A stretch of DNA of 53,669 nt from Gammaproteobacteria bacterium (GTDB lineage: Bacteria > Pseudomonadota > Gammaproteobacteria > Chromatiales > Chromatiaceae), in contig RZZN01000028.1 in the NCBI GenBank assembly GCA_009929855.1, forward strand, positions 1 through 53,669. Reading direction: 5' to 3'. The number at the start of each line of letters is the position of its first letter. The first letter of the stretch is position 1. Below, one piece after another: positions 496 through 8,484 of this stretch. The notes beneath the pieces are model-generated. The model was given only the letters and a program-made list of their open reading frames with translations, did not search any database and was not told the origin of the DNA. The position numbers were made by a program, and so were the translations under genes.

Positions 496-1665
496 TCAAG
501 GCAATCGTCGTTTCATCCGATCCAGGGCAAAGGGCCACAGGCGGCCCTTTTCCCAAAGGATGCGTCCGAAGAGCTGACGACGCGTCTTCGGCGGTCGAGG
601 TCGCCGTGCCCGCTCGACCAGATGAATCGCCCCCTGGTCGCAGACCGCCACGCAGGCACCGCAACCAAGACAGACGGAGGCATCGACGGCGGCGTAGCGA
701 GCGGCTCTGGGCACCTGGCGGGCGCCGGCTGCAAGACCGATGCACTTGACATTGCAGGTCTTGAGGCAGGCGCCGCAATAGTTGCAACGCCCTGGGTCGA
801 TTTCGACCAGGAATGGTGTCTTGGCGATCCCCTCGTTGAAGCCCATTTGGACGCCTGCCATCAGCTCGCAGCAGCAGCGACAGCAATTGCAGATGAATGA
901 GGGGCGTTCCCGGACATTGTCGGTCACATGGGTGAGACCAAGTGAGCGGGCGTCGTCGAGTGTCTTGAGCATGCTCGCCTTGTCGCGCTCCCGCGCAAAA
1001 CCGCGACGGACCAAGAAGCGCGCGCCTTCACCGAGCACCATGCAGATGTCCTCGACGGGCGCCCCCTTGCGACAGACATCTCCTAGATGCTCCTTCTTGT
1101 GGCGACAATAACAGAGTGTGACGGCACAGAAATCCGCCTCCTGGATGATGCGTCTGGCATCCTCGTAGGCGGTGATGTGTGAGCGGACCGGGATGTGCGC
1201 GTCATGGACGAGTGCGCGGGTGAGCTGGGTGCGGCTGCCGAAGAACTCGCCGGACTGACCCGCTTGGCCGTTCTCCTTCAAGTATTGCGTCATCAGCTGG
1301 GCCAGATCGGCGAGCGGCACATCGGCCCGCCGCCGCATGAAGGTGAATTCCATGAAGCCGATGAGACCGGGGACCAAGAGATAGTAGGTCGTGCCGGCGA
1401 ATTCCATGTCCATCACCAAGCCCTTATCGGCCATGCGCTCGAGCACTGGCAAGAGGTGCTCGTTGGACAGCCCGGTCCGTTCGACGAGCTCACCCAGGGT
1501 TGACTCATGCAAGGGGAAGCAGGATCCGACGAAGGCCTCGGTCTCATCGAAGAGGCGTGACAGGATCTCCCGGAGCAGGGCACTGTCCACGAGCCCGATC
1601 GGATAGCGGTTGAGCCGATCGATCAACGGCGTCAACGCGGACTTGCGACCTGCCAAATGTCCCAT
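496..1665 (-). CDS. 4Fe-4S dicluster protein with extra cysteine motifs
   Basis: The protein has 389 residues. Two bacterial ferredoxin motifs (CxxCxxCxxxC) sit near residues 294-304 (CNYCGACLKTC) and 332-342 (CLGCGACVAVC), enough for two [4Fe-4S] clusters. Upstream are a dense cysteine patch, CNCCRCCC at about 259-266, and a further cysteine set near 180-198 (including CYCRH). The N-terminal 130 residues look helical, like a winged-helix segment, so the protein may be a redox sensor or electron carrier. The ATG at 1665 is preferred because AGAGGAG lies about 10 bases upstream; the frame stays open further 5' but that part is low quality. No signal peptide is seen, so it is likely cytoplasmic. 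The function is unknown. Confidence 0.8.
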   Translation of the reverse strand: MGHLAGRKSALTPLIDRLNRYPIGLVDSALLREILSRLFDETEAFVGSCFPLHESTLGELVERTGLSNEHLLPVLERMADKGLVMDMEFAGTTYYLLVPGLIGFMEFTFMRRRADVPLADLAQLMTQYLKENGQAGQSGEFFGSRTQLTRALVHDAHIPVRSHITAYEDARRIIQEADFCAVTLCYCRHKKEHLGDVCRKGAPVEDICMVLGEGARFLVRRGFARERDKASMLKTLDDARSLGLTHVTDNVRERPSFICNCCRCCCELMAGVQMGFNEGIAKTPFLVEIDPGRCNYCGACLKTCNVKCIGLAAGARQVPRAARYAAVDASVCLGCGACVAVCDQGAIHLVERARRPRPPKTRRQLFGRILWEKGRLWPFALDRMKRRLP

Positions 1666-1847
1666 CGGAAATCGCGCTCCTCTGCTCGGATGCGGTCGCC
1701 GGATGCACGGCGTGCTCAAGTGAGTATCGCGCTGGCGACCCGAGTGCACCACAAAAAATTCCTGGTGCTCGCGCACGGCGGTGCGGTCCGCCATCCCTGC
1801 ATGGATCTCGGGTCACGCGCTGCTGCATGGGTGACCCCTTGATGTCG

Positions 1848-3221
1848 CTATTCCAGGACCAGTTTGCGTCCGAAGGGGTGTGGGCGTTCGGCGTGGGCGG
1901 CGGGGACGGCCCAGATGAGTGGGTAGTTGGGAGCGTAGTGGGCGGGGCCATCGAGGTCGGTGAGGATGACGCCGATGTCGGGGGCGTGGCGCTCGGCCTC
2001 GCGCAGGAGTGGGGTGAAGTCGGTGCCGCCGCCGCCTTGGACGCGGATGGCGCGCAGGTTGGAGCGGCCGGGGGTGAAGTGGGTCACGCTGTTGACCTGG
2101 GTGTCGCCGATGATGATGACGAGCGCGGCCTCGAGACGGCGGCTGATGGACTCGATCTCGGTGGCGAAGCGGTCGAGCAGGGGGGCTTCGATGGAGCCTG
2201 AGACGTCGACCATGACGACCAGGCGGGCGACCGCGCGGCTGGCGGTGGTGCCGGGCTCCCAGGGCATGCGCGGGCAGTTGCGTCGGCCTTGGTTGGCCAG
2301 GTAGGAGCGTGAGGGGCGTGACCAGGAGCGGTCGGGCTGGTGTGATAGTGCCCGAGCGAGTCGTGTGCGGAGGATCTGCTCCCAGGGTGTCCGAACCCTG
2401 GGCCGGTCGGCGAGCAGCGCGCGCAGCATGGAATGGGGACCGTCGCCGGCGTGGGCGCGGGTGATGCGCTCGCGCCATTCGCGGGCCTGCTCGGCGTCCT
2501 GCTCGGGGTGTGCGTCGTCCGGCGCGGGCAGCAGGTCGGGTGGGTTGTCGGCGGCGAGGTGGCGGGCGCGGGCGGCGCGTGGGCCATCGGTGTGGATCCG
2601 CGCGGGGGGGCTGGCGGACGGCTGGGGTGGGCCATTGGGGTTGGTGCGTGCCGTGGGTCGTTCACCGTCTGCGCCACCGGTCCCGGGACGGCGGCCGGCG
2701 CCGTCTGTCTGCTCGGCTGGGCGGCGGTCGTCGATGGCGCGATAGAGCCCCTCCAGGTCCCATTCGAGGAGCGCGGTCTCGACACCTTGATGGATGTCGA
2801 GCACGCTCTCCAGCAGCTGCTCGAGCTGGATCGCGCCGGGAGGCAGCTCGAGCCAGCTCAGGTGGCTGAGTGTGCTGTTGACGATGGCGTCGGCGCAGAG
2901 GTTGAAGAGCTCGTCGTCGAGCGTGCCGCGCAGTCGCTGCAGCGCGGCGCGGCGCTGTGGGTGGCGCAAGGCCACATGCAGCACCTGATGGGCGACCAGG
3001 CCGGTCTGCAGCGGGAGGGGCAGGGTTTCGAAGGCGGGACCATAGAGGATGCGCGTGCCGTCGTTTGCGGCGAGGAGTCCCTGTGGCCCCTGCCGCAGTG
3101 GCAGGGGCGCATCGGGCGCCAGGTCCTGGTGCCGGATCCAGAGCGCGAGTCCGCCGGTGGCGGGGGCGTATTCGACCAGACGCTGGATGGCGCGCGTGCC
3201 GCGATGCCGATGGGACGCCAT
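1848..3221 (-). CDS. VWA-like protein with a DUF2201 N-terminal metallopeptidase-like domain
   Basis: The protein has 457 residues. The N-terminal half resembles the putative metallopeptidase domain of DUF2201 proteins, but the expected HExxH reads HQVLH at residues 78-82. A Pro/Gly/Arg-rich linker follows. The C-terminal part is a VWA-like domain with a MIDAS-type signature: DVSGS, GGGGTDF and TDLDG. Its start lies 5 bases after the stop of the MoxR ATPase gene, so the two are almost certainly co-translated. MoxR ATPases commonly act as chaperones or metal-insertion factors together with VWA partners. The longer reading frame reaching 4073 is a shadow of the ATPase gene and was trimmed to the ATG at 3221. 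Confidence 0.85.
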   Translation of the reverse strand: MASHRHRGTRAIQRLVEYAPATGGLALWIRHQDLAPDAPLPLRQGPQGLLAANDGTRILYGPAFETLPLPLQTGLVAHQVLHVALRHPQRRAALQRLRGTLDDELFNLCADAIVNSTLSHLSWLELPPGAIQLEQLLESVLDIHQGVETALLEWDLEGLYRAIDDRRPAEQTDGAGRRPGTGGADGERPTARTNPNGPPQPSASPPARIHTDGPRAARARHLAADNPPDLLPAPDDAHPEQDAEQAREWRERITRAHAGDGPHSMLRALLADRPRVRTPWEQILRTRLARALSHQPDRSWSRPSRSYLANQGRRNCPRMPWEPGTTASRAVARLVVMVDVSGSIEAPLLDRFATEIESISRRLEAALVIIIGDTQVNSVTHFTPGRSNLRAIRVQGGGGTDFTPLLREAERHAPDIGVILTDLDGPAHYAPNYPLIWAVPAAHAERPHPFGRKLVLE

Positions 3222-3226
3222 GGCCC

Positions 3227-4330
3227 TCAGTGGCCCTCCCGGGCCCGCTGCTCGAGGTAGCGCGCGTAGACCGGGCTGTGCAGGATGGTCTGCTCCAGCC
3301 CACGCTCCAGGGCCTTCTCGAAGAGTCGCTCCATGGCCAGAGTCTGAGCCTCGCGCAGTGGCAGGGGGGTGGGTGCCTCGATCTCGGGCAGCTGTTCGAT
3401 GATCTCCAGTGCGCGGGCCAGGCGGGGGGCATCGGTACTGGCTGCCAGGAGTGCGTAGAGCAGGCCGTAGAGCCCGTCGAGCGTGGTTGGCAGGAGGGCG
3501 ATGGTGGCCGCCCCAGGCGCCGCCTCGAGCAGGCGCAGGACGTCGGTGGCAGCCTGGATCTCGCGCAGGACGCCGAACAGCTCGGCGGCGTTGGCGGCCC
3601 CGATGCGCCCTTGCACGAAGAGCCGCTTGGCAGTCTCGGAGAGGTCCGACTGGAGCACGGTGGAGACGTCCTCCCAACCGCGCGGACTGGCACCGATCAG
3701 ATGGTCGTTGGCGAGCTGGGTGTGGGTGTCGTCGAGCTTGTCGGGTCGCACCTTGAGGTAGGCCATGACCTCGGGGGCGAAGTCGTTGGCCAGGGCATGG
3801 TCGAGGAATGCCTCGATGACGGTCTGGACATTGAAATGGAACATGCGGTCGGCCAGCGCGGTGCCCATGTCGTGGCTGACTGCGCCATGGTGGGCGGCGT
3901 TGCCGGCGGCGACCACCAGCCAGCCGTCGGGCAGCTGATAGCGACCGACCCGGCGGTCCAGGATCAGCGAATAGGCCGAGATCTGCAGACGTTGATCGGC
4001 AGCCGTGAGCTCGTCGAGGAAGAGGATGCCCTCGGGCTGCTCGGGTCCGGGCAGGAACTCCGGGGGGAACCAAACCGTCTGCTCGCGGCGCTCGTCGGCA
4101 TAGATGGCGCCGCGGATATCGACCGGCTCGATGGTGGTGAGGCGCAGATCCACCAGCGGCACCCCATAGTGTACGGCGACCTGGCGGACCACCGAGGACT
4201 TGCCGACCCCGCGCGTGCCCCAGAGCATGGAGGCGCGCCGGCGCAGCCTGGGATCGGCATATTGCGCGATCAGCGCCTGTTTGGCCGCCGCGATCGACAC
4301 CGGCGGGATGTTCATGGGGTCACCCTGCAT
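3227..4330 (-). CDS. MoxR-type AAA+ ATPase
   Basis: The protein has 367 residues. Walker A is GTRGVGKS (about residues 38-45) and Walker B is GILFLDEL (about 101-108), followed by sensor-type residues (VVAAGN). This places it among AAA+ ATPases of the MoxR/AAA_5 type, which remodel or metallate VWA partners. I prefer the ATG at 4330 because GGAGG lies five bases upstream; an ATG at 4315 would remove five residues. With the 4330 start, the gene overlaps the end of the upstream membrane-protein gene by 11 bases, and the VWA gene follows directly. The three genes look like one operon. Confidence 0.88.
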   Translation of the reverse strand: MQGDPMNIPPVSIAAAKQALIAQYADPRLRRRASMLWGTRGVGKSSVVRQVAVHYGVPLVDLRLTTIEPVDIRGAIYADERREQTVWFPPEFLPGPEQPEGILFLDELTAADQRLQISAYSLILDRRVGRYQLPDGWLVVAAGNAAHHGAVSHDMGTALADRMFHFNVQTVIEAFLDHALANDFAPEVMAYLKVRPDKLDDTHTQLANDHLIGASPRGWEDVSTVLQSDLSETAKRLFVQGRIGAANAAELFGVLREIQAATDVLRLLEAAPGAATIALLPTTLDGLYGLLYALLAASTDAPRLARALEIIEQLPEIEAPTPLPLREAQTLAMERLFEKALERGLEQTILHSPVYARYLEQRAREGH

Positions 4331-5621
4331 CCGATCCTCCCGCTGGGCTCGGGTCGCGGTCCGCAGCGGCGTGCGCCGGCGTCTCGACCGATCCGCCCAG
4401 GTGCGTCCGGGTCCGGGTGGTCGGGGCCGGCGTGTCCGGCTGGATCCAGGCGGGGAAGGTGAGCGCGCGCGGGATGGGCGGGAGCTCGATGCGCGGGATC
4501 TCGCGGAGCATGAAGAAGCCCATGAGCAGCAGCGGCGGGGCGTGGAAGATGAGCATGCGCAGGACCGAGTCATCGGCCAGCGGCAGCCACTGGGTGGCCG
4601 GGGCGGCGGCCAGGATGAGCAGCCCGATCAGGAGCGGGATGCCGCGCTGCAGACTGGCCCGCCAGCGTGCGCGCCGGTGACGGCGGTGGAATTCGGCGGG
4701 GGGCGTGGCGAGCGTGCGCGCCAGGTGGCGAATGGTGCGCGCGAGCTTGGCCTCGATGTCGGCGGTGCGCGCCGGCTCGTCGGCGGCGACCCGGATACTG
4801 CCGCGCCAATCGCTGACGAGCAGCCGCAGCGGTCGCCACGACCAGCCGATGACGGCGAGCAGGTCCTCTGGGATTCGCAGCCTGAGGCCCGCGTCGGCCG
4901 CGAGACGCAGCGGCACCACTGGACCATCGAAACGGTCGGTGCGCAGCTCCAGGGTCACCCCCGCGACACGCGCCATCGCCCCCTGCAGCATCGGCTGGGG
5001 GTGTGCGCTCTGGTCGGGTGGCGGCGTCCGCGCCTCGGCCTCGGCCTTGTCCTCGGCCGGCCCTGGCGCCCGCTCATCCTGGCCGGCGCCCAGACCCCGG
5101 ACCAGCCGCGCACCCGCGTGCAACAGGCCCCCGGTCAGGCCCCGCGCCCGCCCCGAGAGCCCCGCCGCCGGCGGGCTGTCGATGCGATAGCTGCGCGCCA
5201 CCGTCACCCCCTCGACAACGTCGATCTGCCGCCCCACCGGCAGGGCATCGAGCTGGTCAAGCATGATCTCCAGATCGCTGCCCTCGAGGGTCGCCGTGGC
5301 GCACAGTCCGGTCGTATCCCAGACCTGGCGCACCAACCGGTGGCGGTCGTTCGTTGCCACCTCCAGGGTGAGGCGCGATTCGAGTGCCAGCGCCTGGGTG
5401 GCGCTCGGCGGATGCGGCAGCGGCTTGAAGCGCAGGATGCGCGCCTCGCGCTGGCTCGCCGCCATATCCAGATGCAGACCGCGGCGCGTGAAGGGCGCCA
5501 CCAGGGCGAGGATCTCATGGTGGGTCAGGGGCAGGGCCGGCGATTCCGCCCCGGTCCGCGCGGCGACGCCGGACGGCGGCAGCCGCCGCGCCTCATCTCG
5601 TACGACACGGATTCGGGTCAT
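4320..5621 (-). CDS. Hypothetical protein with two C-terminal membrane segments
   Basis: The protein has 433 residues. The first 330 are soluble and rich in Arg, Leu and Glu, without a motif I recognise. Two adjacent hydrophobic segments near residues 335-352 (LLIGLLILAAAPATQWL) and 365-382 (LIFHAPPLLLMGFFML) form a hairpin, followed by a Pro-rich tail. It is the first gene of the MoxR-VWA operon and overlaps the ATPase start. It may anchor that complex to the membrane; this is inferred only from position and topology. Confidence 0.7.
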   Translation of the reverse strand: MTRIRVVRDEARRLPPSGVAARTGAESPALPLTHHEILALVAPFTRRGLHLDMAASQREARILRFKPLPHPPSATQALALESRLTLEVATNDRHRLVRQVWDTTGLCATATLEGSDLEIMLDQLDALPVGRQIDVVEGVTVARSYRIDSPPAAGLSGRARGLTGGLLHAGARLVRGLGAGQDERAPGPAEDKAEAEARTPPPDQSAHPQPMLQGAMARVAGVTLELRTDRFDGPVVPLRLAADAGLRLRIPEDLLAVIGWSWRPLRLLVSDWRGSIRVAADEPARTADIEAKLARTIRHLARTLATPPAEFHRRHRRARWRASLQRGIPLLIGLLILAAAPATQWLPLADDSVLRMLIFHAPPLLLMGFFMLREIPRIELPPIPRALTFPAWIQPDTPAPTTRTRTHLGGSVETPAHAAADRDPSPAGGSDAG

Positions 5622-6012: not shown

Positions 6013-8484
6013 ATGTCCAATCACGCCGCGTCTGGGGCCGAAAACGCGGGCCAGCAGCCTGGGCGCTGGTTTGCCGCGCTGACACATTGGCTGCCACTGA
6101 TTGCTCAGGTGCGCACCTATCAACGTCAGTGGCTGGTCGTCGATGTTGCTGCCGGGCTGGCACTTGGCGCCATCCTGGTGCCAGTCGGCCTGGCCTATGC
6201 CGAGCTGGCGGGCCTGCCAGCCGTCACCGGCCTCTATGCCAGCATCGCCTGTCTGTTTGCCTATGCCTTGGTCGGGCCATCGCGGGTGCTGGCTCTGGGC
6301 CCCGATTCCTCGCTATCACCCCTGATCTTCGCGGCCATCATCCCCCTGTTGGCAGTCCCGGATCCCGCTCAGGCCATTGCGCTGGCGAGCATGTTGGCGC
6401 TGATGGTGGGTGTGATCGAGATCGGCCTCGGGCTGGGCCGGCTCGGGTTCGTGGCCGACCTCTTGTCGCAGGAGGTGCAGGTCGGCTACATGAATGGTCT
6501 GGCGGTCGTGATCATCATCGGGATGCTGTCGAAGCTGTTCGGCATTTCGATCGCTGCCGACGACACGCTCGACAAGCTGATTGCCTTCATTGCCGGTCTT
6601 GCGGATACCAACCCGGTGTCTCTGGCGATCGGTATCGGCACGCTGTTGACGTTGCTCGTCTTGCCTCGTCTCACCCGGAAGGTTCCGGCGGTGGTCGTGG
6701 GTGTGGGCGGGGCGCTGCTGGTGACGGCGGCTCTCGGCTTGGACCGCTTCGGGGTGGACACGATCGGCGTGCTGCCGAGCGGGATCCCCGCGCCATCCTG
6801 GCCGCGGGTGTCGATTGAGACGCTCGCCACGCTCGTGGTGGCCGCATTCGGCATCGTGCTGGTGTCACTGGCCGACACGATCGCCACCTCGGCCAGTTTC
6901 GCCGCCAGGCGCGGGGAAGAGGTCGATGCCAACCGCGAGCTGACTGGGGTGGGGGTTGCCAATGTGGTGACTGGCCTGTTTCAGGGGTTCCCGATCTCGG
7001 TCAGTGCCTCTCGCTCGGCGGTGTTGATGCAGACCGGGGCGAAGAGTCAGATCAGCAATCTGGTGGGCGCCACTCTGCTGCTTGCACTGCTCATCTTGAA
7101 CCCAGGTCTGCTTCAGGATCTGCCGCAGCCGGCGTTGGCGGCGGTGGTGATCGTCGCCGCGCTGGGACTGGCCGACCCCGGCGTCCTGCGCACCTACTGG
7201 CGTGTGCGCAAGTCATCGCTCGCCATTTCACTGGTGGCCACGGGTGGCGTGATCGTCTTTGGTGTGCTGGATGGCATTCTCATCGCCGTCGGCATGGCCG
7301 TGCTGCTGTTCTTCCGCCGCAGTTGGTGGCCACCGGGTGAGGTGCTGGCGTATGACAGCACGCTCGATGACTGGCACTCGGCAAAACGGCTCAAGGAAGA
7401 TGGCACTCAGGCGCGAGGCATCCTGGTGTTTCGCTGGGAGGCCCCGCTGTTTTTTGCCAATGCCGGGATCTTTCGTCAGCAGCTGCGTCGACTGGTGCAT
7501 GAGCGCCAGCCGCGGTGGATCGTGCTGCAGTGTGAGGCCATCACCGATATCGACGTGACGGCAGCCGCCATGTTGAAGGATCTGGACGGCGAGCTCGATC
7601 ACCAGGGTATCCGCCTGGCGTTCGTCGGCATGCGCAGTCGTCTCAAGGCACTCATCCTTGATTACGGACTCTATGAGACGCTGGAGGGCGAGCGATTCTT
7701 TCCTTCGATCAAGCGGGCGCTCGGCGCGATGGAACGCCGCCGCAAGGCCAGCTCGGTATTCCTCTGCTCCCCCATCAACGCGATGGATGATGGCATCTAT
7801 CGCCAAGCGATCCCGCTCAAGACCCTGCGTGAACATGGCGATTTCGGCATCGGCATCTTCGATGACCTGGACGGCGATCTGGTGATGCTCGACGGGCGCT
7901 GTTTCCAGGTGATGAGCGACGGACAGGTCAAGGAGGTGAGTCAGCATGCCAGGACACCTTTTGCCTGTGTGACCGATTTCGAACCGATCAGTCATGACGA
8001 TCTGGAGCAGGAGCTCGATGACGCGGCCTTTCGGGACTGGCTGCTCGACTTGCTTCCTTCGCCGAACCTCTATTACGCCCTGCGCATCGAGGGCAGCTTT
8101 GCCGAGGTCGTGACCAGCAGCATCGCCAAGGCTCGACCTGGCGAAGGGCTTGACCAGGCTCAGCACCGCGTCGCGTCCGAGGTCAGAGGGACACTGGCTG
8201 GCTTCTATACACCCACCTTCCTCAAATCGCTGAACAGGCCTGGGTTACAACTGAGCTTCCTGACCGAGGATCGGCGGCGGGGTGGTCGGCTGGTGTCGTG
8301 CCGTCCGCGCCAGGTGCGAGCCCGCGTTCAGTTCATCACCGTCGTCGAGCTGGGTCTGCCCATGAGTCTGGGCTATCTGACCTGGACCTATGACGAGAGC
8401 GCTGGCGCCTATCGCGAGCCGGGCGGGCAAGATCATGGCGGGTCACAGGCTGGCCTGCGCCCGGCGGCACGGGCCTCGCGATAA
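6013..8484 (+). CDS. SulP anion transporter with STAS and a degenerate ALDC domain
   Basis: The protein has 823 residues. Residues about 40-450 form the SulP membrane domain (inorganic anion transport such as sulfate or bicarbonate), including GLAYAELAGLPAVTGLYAS near the first helices. A STAS domain follows at about 470-565. Residues about 575-805 match alpha-acetolactate decarboxylase (BudA) along their length: LREHGDFGIGIFDDLDGDL, then RTPFACVT, YYALRIEGSF and the terminal PG-x-x-L-x-FLTEDRRRGG segment. The three zinc-binding His of that segment are replaced by Q746, S748 and R759, and the TRTVPR-type stretch reads TSSIAK, so decarboxylase activity is unlikely. A cytoplasmic regulatory role for the extra domain is an inference. 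Start: ATG 6013 after a GGAGGGGGAG stretch. The last 17 or so residues overlap an antisense peptidase relic. Confidence 0.9.
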   Translation: MSNHAASGAENAGQQPGRWFAALTHWLPLIAQVRTYQRQWLVVDVAAGLALGAILVPVGLAYAELAGLPAVTGLYASIACLFAYALVGPSRVLALGPDSSLSPLIFAAIIPLLAVPDPAQAIALASMLALMVGVIEIGLGLGRLGFVADLLSQEVQVGYMNGLAVVIIIGMLSKLFGISIAADDTLDKLIAFIAGLADTNPVSLAIGIGTLLTLLVLPRLTRKVPAVVVGVGGALLVTAALGLDRFGVDTIGVLPSGIPAPSWPRVSIETLATLVVAAFGIVLVSLADTIATSASFAARRGEEVDANRELTGVGVANVVTGLFQGFPISVSASRSAVLMQTGAKSQISNLVGATLLLALLILNPGLLQDLPQPALAAVVIVAALGLADPGVLRTYWRVRKSSLAISLVATGGVIVFGVLDGILIAVGMAVLLFFRRSWWPPGEVLAYDSTLDDWHSAKRLKEDGTQARGILVFRWEAPLFFANAGIFRQQLRRLVHERQPRWIVLQCEAITDIDVTAAAMLKDLDGELDHQGIRLAFVGMRSRLKALILDYGLYETLEGERFFPSIKRALGAMERRRKASSVFLCSPINAMDDGIYRQAIPLKTLREHGDFGIGIFDDLDGDLVMLDGRCFQVMSDGQVKEVSQHARTPFACVTDFEPISHDDLEQELDDAAFRDWLLDLLPSPNLYYALRIEGSFAEVVTSSIAKARPGEGLDQAQHRVASEVRGTLAGFYTPTFLKSLNRPGLQLSFLTEDRRRGGRLVSCRPRQVRARVQFITVVELGLPMSLGYLTWTYDESAGAYREPGGQDHGGSQAGLRPAARASR

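Follow-up and report, generated by a model that had tools for sequence, protein, structure and literature searches.

The gene at 6013..8484 on the forward strand of a 53,669-nucleotide stretch of DNA (hereafter the window; contig RZZN01000028.1 of the Chromatiaceae assembly GCA_009929855.1) encodes a SulP transporter that carries, behind its STAS domain, a domain of predicted acetolactate decarboxylase (ALDC) fold from which the catalytic residues have been lost. An ortholog with the same arrangement, and with losses at the same places, is found in a second genus. We put at about 0.72 the probability that this domain is a non-catalytic accessory that affects the transporter, whatever the means and with sensing counted among them; the dead enzyme was probably retained for a part in the regulation or structure of the transporter. 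Such a protein probably arose by a single capture of a cytoplasmic ALDC behind the STAS domain of a SulP/SLC26-type transporter, the captured enzyme then having turned into a non-catalytic accessory.

Fused gene and its ortholog

The open frame encodes 823 amino acids plus a stop, and its ATG at 6013 is preceded by a purine-rich stretch resembling a ribosome-binding site. Three Pfam domains follow one another in the single chain, as the original prediction had claimed: the SulP transmembrane domain (Sulfate_transp, PF00916; residues 42–408, 6136..7236; 269.4 bits, cut-off 23.2), the STAS domain (residues 466–569, 7408..7719; 56.4 bits, cut-off 22.6), and the ALDC-like pseudoenzyme domain (AAL_decarboxy, PF03306; residues 582–789, 7756..8379; 168.8 bits, cut-off 25), the last with an E-value of 1.4e-49, far above chance. 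The NCBIfam sulfate permease model TIGR00815 matches over its full length with 377.3 bits (cut-off 380.45). STAS and ALDC-like domains meet at 7699..7755, where a helix (residues 563–579, modelled with moderate confidence) runs into the basic linker MERRRKASS (residues 573–581).

The suggested search for further SulP-STAS-ALDC chains yielded one, in Candidatus Thiosymbion sp. R3-B40 (record JAHDND010000255.1; genome G031, loci L036 and L005), which belongs to a genus different from that of the window genome. The SulP-STAS parts of the two proteins are 82% identical and the ALDC parts 73%, the linker MERRRKASS is identical, and the genes flanking the fusion differ between the two genomes. Among 210 genomes of the family, an ALDC match occurs in 25 and the fusion in these two; an order search, likewise of 210 genomes, gave the same tallies. 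ALDC matches in three other genomes of the Thiosymbion genus lie in short frames only.

Wider searches added no further member. Judged by frame length, a sample of 369 genomes of the class (ALDC match in 18) held no SulP fusion other than that of the window, and 39 genomes of another family, that of genome G277, held none (ALDC match in 4). A contig search for relatives returned 410 matches, the best 80 of which include one fusion, that of Candidatus Thiosymbion. The ALDC part also matches 133 plasmid records, all at less than 60% identity; those listed (20 of the 133) are labelled ALDC or unlabelled. Two other long ALDC frames (L054 and L092) contain no second Pfam domain. Unfused SulP relatives are at best 42–43% identical (family sample of 204 genomes and phylum sample of 398, with few candidates scored per genome; about 42% on plasmids).

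Loss of catalytic residues and retention of the fold

The residues that we take to be the catalytic and zinc residues of ALDC are the Glu of the LDGE motif, the Arg of TRxVP, and three His. They were scored across 112 aligned ALDC rows, from which repeats of the same places (L003, L005, L024) had been dropped beforehand. Glu and all three His are intact in 108 of the 110 non-fusion rows, and the other two (L020 and L089) end before the close of the zinc segment. The corresponding letters are D, Q, S, and R in the window fusion and D, Q, Y, and R in the ortholog, while the Arg column holds S702 and Cys, respectively, so that neither protein has the three zinc His with the Glu and Arg of an ALDC enzyme. 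In the window, D622 (7876..7878) stands at the invariant Glu of LDGE, the former active-site loop (TRSVPR..., residues 699–722, 8107..8178) has lost its Arg (S702) and a Gln (V720), and the former zinc segment (8248..8289) has Q746, S748, and R759 for the three His. The letters reported beforehand at these places (Q746, S748, R759, TSSIAK, and LDGD) were all read correctly, and the proposed scoring of zinc ligands across aligned ALDC domains showed them to be missing from matching positions in both genera.

In a later set of 19 loci, three of which (L148, L151, L152) are places counted before, Glu and the three His are present in all 17 long rows, one of which (L152) has Gly at the Arg position; two fragments retain Arg with three His (L159) or show the last His only (L158). 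Divergence alone does not account for the losses in the fusions, because the scored intact rows include proteins more distant (to 27% identity) than the relatives L037 or L143.

Forty-two alignment columns show at least 90% conservation among the 108 intact rows. Both fusions keep 31 of these, mostly core letters such as Gly, Phe, and Pro, and another five differ in a single fusion. In the remaining six, neither fusion has the conserved letter (Glu 622, Arg 702, Gln 720, His 746, His 748, and His 759). Five of these six are the presumed catalytic and zinc residues; their loss, with 31 other columns kept, makes the domain a clear example of an enzyme converted into an accessory. Both fusions also lack a less conserved Glu near the C-terminus (position 805; 86%). 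Against the NCBIfam ALDC equivalog TIGR01252, the fused domain scores 144.6 bits, below the cut-off of 180.65, and the relative L037 scores 210.8.

Structure prediction, which had been put forward as a test of the fold, returned an ALDC fold for the fused domain, in keeping with its PF03306 family membership. Seven solved sequences are matched by the domain (best E 4.5e-30), all of them ALDC or described as similar to ALDC.

Selection was gauged by a single pairwise comparison, that of the window fusion with the Thiosymbion ortholog. With the Nei-Gojobori method, nonsynonymous (dN) and synonymous (dS) divergence are 0.171 and 0.835 for the ALDC part, 0.117 and 0.885 for residues 1–410, and 0.102 and 0.682 for residues 411–575. 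A dN/dS of about 0.2 indicates that purifying selection acts on the ALDC part, slightly less tightly than on the transporter. Its first half (dN 0.119, dS 0.940) is tighter than its second (0.227, 0.758), and YN00 gave 0.110 and 1.404 for the first half and 0.210 and 1.109 for the second. The predicted fold, the catalytic losses at shared positions in both genera, and this constraint together uphold the earlier suggestion that the domain has been kept as a fold.

The former active-site loop has drifted within this conserved frame. Between the two fusions only 8 of its 24 residues are identical, whereas the flanking stretches agree at 93 of 118 residues on the N-terminal side and at 56 of 69 on the C-terminal side. 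Relative to L143 and L037 the loop lacks about four residues, and the former zinc position 748 is Ser in one fusion and Tyr in the other. Drift of the loop beside a kept core would be expected if the substrate site were no longer used while the core was, and the drift and the Ser/Tyr difference fit a pocket that has been lost better than one re-used for the same ligand. The second half of the original prediction, that the domain perhaps senses a metabolite and gates anion transport, reaches beyond these observations, although the Asp, Gln, and Arg that both fusions have at 622, 746, and 759 leave room for a remodelled anion pocket.

Possible roles of the ALDC-like domain

The transporter to which the domain is joined probably works. 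In an alignment to the plant transporter AtSULTR4;1, R334 and D288 of the window protein fall at Arg393 and Glu347 (equivalence counted by eye), and the ortholog, also by eye, has the same Arg and acidic residue; the retention of these two key positions suggests a working transporter core. In the excerpted text of PMC8298490, a conserved Arg393 is named together with two helix dipoles, in a passage that we take to describe the sulfate site; Glu347 is needed for proton-driven transport, and a transporter without STAS has an impaired dimer and transports less. Other SulP genes occur in the window genome (nine matched stretches on seven contigs, some being pieces of one gene), so the substrate of the fused transporter cannot be deduced by elimination.

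The ALDC-like domain would be cytoplasmic, seated on the final helix of STAS, and would alter transport through STAS. ALDC is a two-fold dimer, and SLC26 transporters are STAS-linked dimers; a pair of dead ALDC domains may cap the STAS pair. Such a cap might fix the geometry of the STAS pair and offer a docking surface, rather than read the old substrate. We consider capping the likeliest single mechanism, although as a specific proposal it falls somewhat short of an even chance; capping and docking are ranked above sensing because the loop of the old pocket drifts.

Several points weigh against an accessory role or against this form of it. The estimate of constraint is carried by one pair, as only two members were found; the C-terminal half of the ALDC part is the looser one, and no YN00 estimate was obtained for the part as a whole. 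The fusion is dispensable for the family, being absent from the other 208 of the 210 family genomes searched. The full-length structural model is weak across its membrane part (mean predicted local distance difference test score, pLDDT, 61.2; predicted template modelling score, pTM, 0.42), and contact between the ALDC-like and STAS domains is therefore unsupported by the model. Finally, dimer capping depends on the dimeric state of ALDC.

Among more specific possibilities, the domain may be a metal-free metabolite sensor, itself a special case of an accessory domain, in which the zinc site was rebuilt from D622, Q746, and R759 as a pocket for an anion or hydroxy acid whose filling gates transport via STAS. 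D, Q, and R are common to both fusions where other rows have E, H, and H, and the Arg could supply a positive charge in place of zinc; however, the adjoining loop that bore the catalytic Arg is the stretch that has drifted and shortened, and position 748 differs between the two proteins. We regard such a sensor as unlikely, though still the most serious of the competing accounts. Its fuller version, in which an Arg-Gln-Asp anion pocket in place of the zinc site would report an anion of central metabolism (acetolactate, pyruvate, or a relative) via STAS to a SulP anion/proton symporter, is slightly less likely again.

If the ALDC part were instead a rotting passenger still to be lost, the missing catalytic residues, the long stem of the two fused domains (0.72 changes per column), and the lower identity of the ALDC part than of the SulP part would be explained, but a dN/dS of about 0.2, frames open in both fusions, 31 of 42 conserved columns kept, and an intact predicted fold argue against neutral decay, which we consider improbable. 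We give still less credence to a surviving enzyme with other ligands or another reaction that feeds the transporter, as is thought for carbonic anhydrase in SulP-carbonic anhydrase fusions; such fusions exist (PMC6458275, in excerpt) and the predicted fold is intact, but in both members alike Glu, Arg, Gln, and all three His have been replaced together, and neither Q/S/R nor Q/Y/R would be likely to form a zinc site. An artefact of assembly or frame joining two genes might be suspected in a genome of 414 contigs; it is refuted by the ortholog, since a separate assembly from another genus has the same join with the identical linker, and we give it almost no weight. The original prediction had named separate homologues with intact His as a sign of chance decay or assembly artefact. 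Such homologues are plentiful, but the second fusion with the same losses argues against both. The non-catalytic accessory domain is the preferred reading.

Relation to known systems

Like SulP/SLC26 transporters with STAS (AtSULTR4;1, prestin, DauA), the fusion has complete SulP and STAS domains and the Arg and acidic residue noted above; it differs from them in an extra 240-residue ALDC-like domain. With ALDC itself (BudA/AlsD; PF03306, TIGR01252) it shares the predicted fold and most near-invariant columns, whereas the catalytic and zinc residues are lost and the domain forms the C-terminal part of a membrane transporter chain.

SulP-carbonic anhydrase fusions (Felce and Saier 2004, via PMC6458275) likewise place an enzyme-derived domain in the chain of a SulP transporter, so fusion of SulP to an enzyme domain is not new in kind. 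In the excerpt of that source, the carbonic anhydrase is regarded as an active enzyme with a link to the transported ion, and the clade is contrasted with STAS-bearing clades. The partner here is ALDC and lies behind STAS, and it lacks the catalytic residues that the carbonic anhydrase partners, to judge from the same excerpt, retain. SulP-STAS-cNMP transporters (for example, L042:2948-5110) also have a regulatory-type domain behind STAS, but theirs belongs to a nucleotide-binding family and is not a former enzyme.

Consistent with the earlier statement that no SulP-ALDC fusion had been described, no description was found among the matches listed from the open-licence literature; papers naming both SulP and acetolactate decarboxylase, as far as their excerpts show, have the two in separate gene lists with no fusion. 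No SulP with a non-catalytic partner turned up among the listed open-licence matches either, hardly any search having been aimed there. The function of STAS is called unresolved in an excerpt of PMC8298490, which speculates on a docking station or small-molecule binding, and a C-terminal helix behind STAS in SLC26A9 can control transport (PMC11214054, in excerpt). A dead enzyme behind STAS in two genera offers a natural experiment on the effect of such a domain on transport.

Origin, other ALDC genes, and genomic context

Trees were built from 33 chosen rows in a full run and from 117 rows in a quick form. In the 33-row tree, the two fused domains group together as a single clade (100/100), their sister is, with moderate support (92/74), the protein L037 from a metagenome-assembled genome (MAG) of Thermoleophilia, and the clade lies near ALDCs of several phyla; the 117-row quick tree agrees. 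The window genome has two more ALDC genes (L001:1429-2223 and L002:580-1530), whose sites are intact and which fall on different branches of the family; L001 starts, by eye, with a stretch like a signal peptide. As these fall elsewhere in the trees, derivation of the fused domain from the genome's own ALDC genes is unsupported. The Thiosymbion genome also has a second ALDC with an intact site (L022), and the fused domain is therefore not the sole ALDC of the cell in either genome.

In a Chloroflexi MAG, three frames stand in a row on one strand at L042:2948-6696: a SulP-STAS-cNMP gene, a frame that looks HAD-like by eye, and an ALDC gene whose site is intact. No separate SulP gene was found beside ALDC at E 1e-5 in the other ALDC loci examined, many of which have short flanks, and we take the proximity in this sole locus as chance. 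The locus with Gly at the Arg position (L021:478-2172, reverse strand, the same gene as L152 and one of the 108 intact rows) is a 565-residue frame with an ALDC domain, Glu and three His present, at its start and tetratricopeptide repeats at its end. The fragment L158 (genome G407) is the remnant of a broken gene, a 68-residue frame with 50 residues aligned and, in another alignment, Thr at the second His position; the same ALDC gene is whole in the genus-mate G277.

Around the fused gene in the window, no promoter-like site was found (mean of 0.3 in shuffled sequences) and one terminator-like site was (shuffled mean 1.6). The nearest likely genes on both sides lie on the opposite strand. Upstream, a reverse-strand run at 496-5621 encodes a ferredoxin-type protein, a DUF2201 metallopeptidase/VWA protein, and two further frames, one matching AAA weakly (22.7 bits, cut-off 21.2) and the other lacking any Pfam match; the downstream neighbor is a DUF427 protein.
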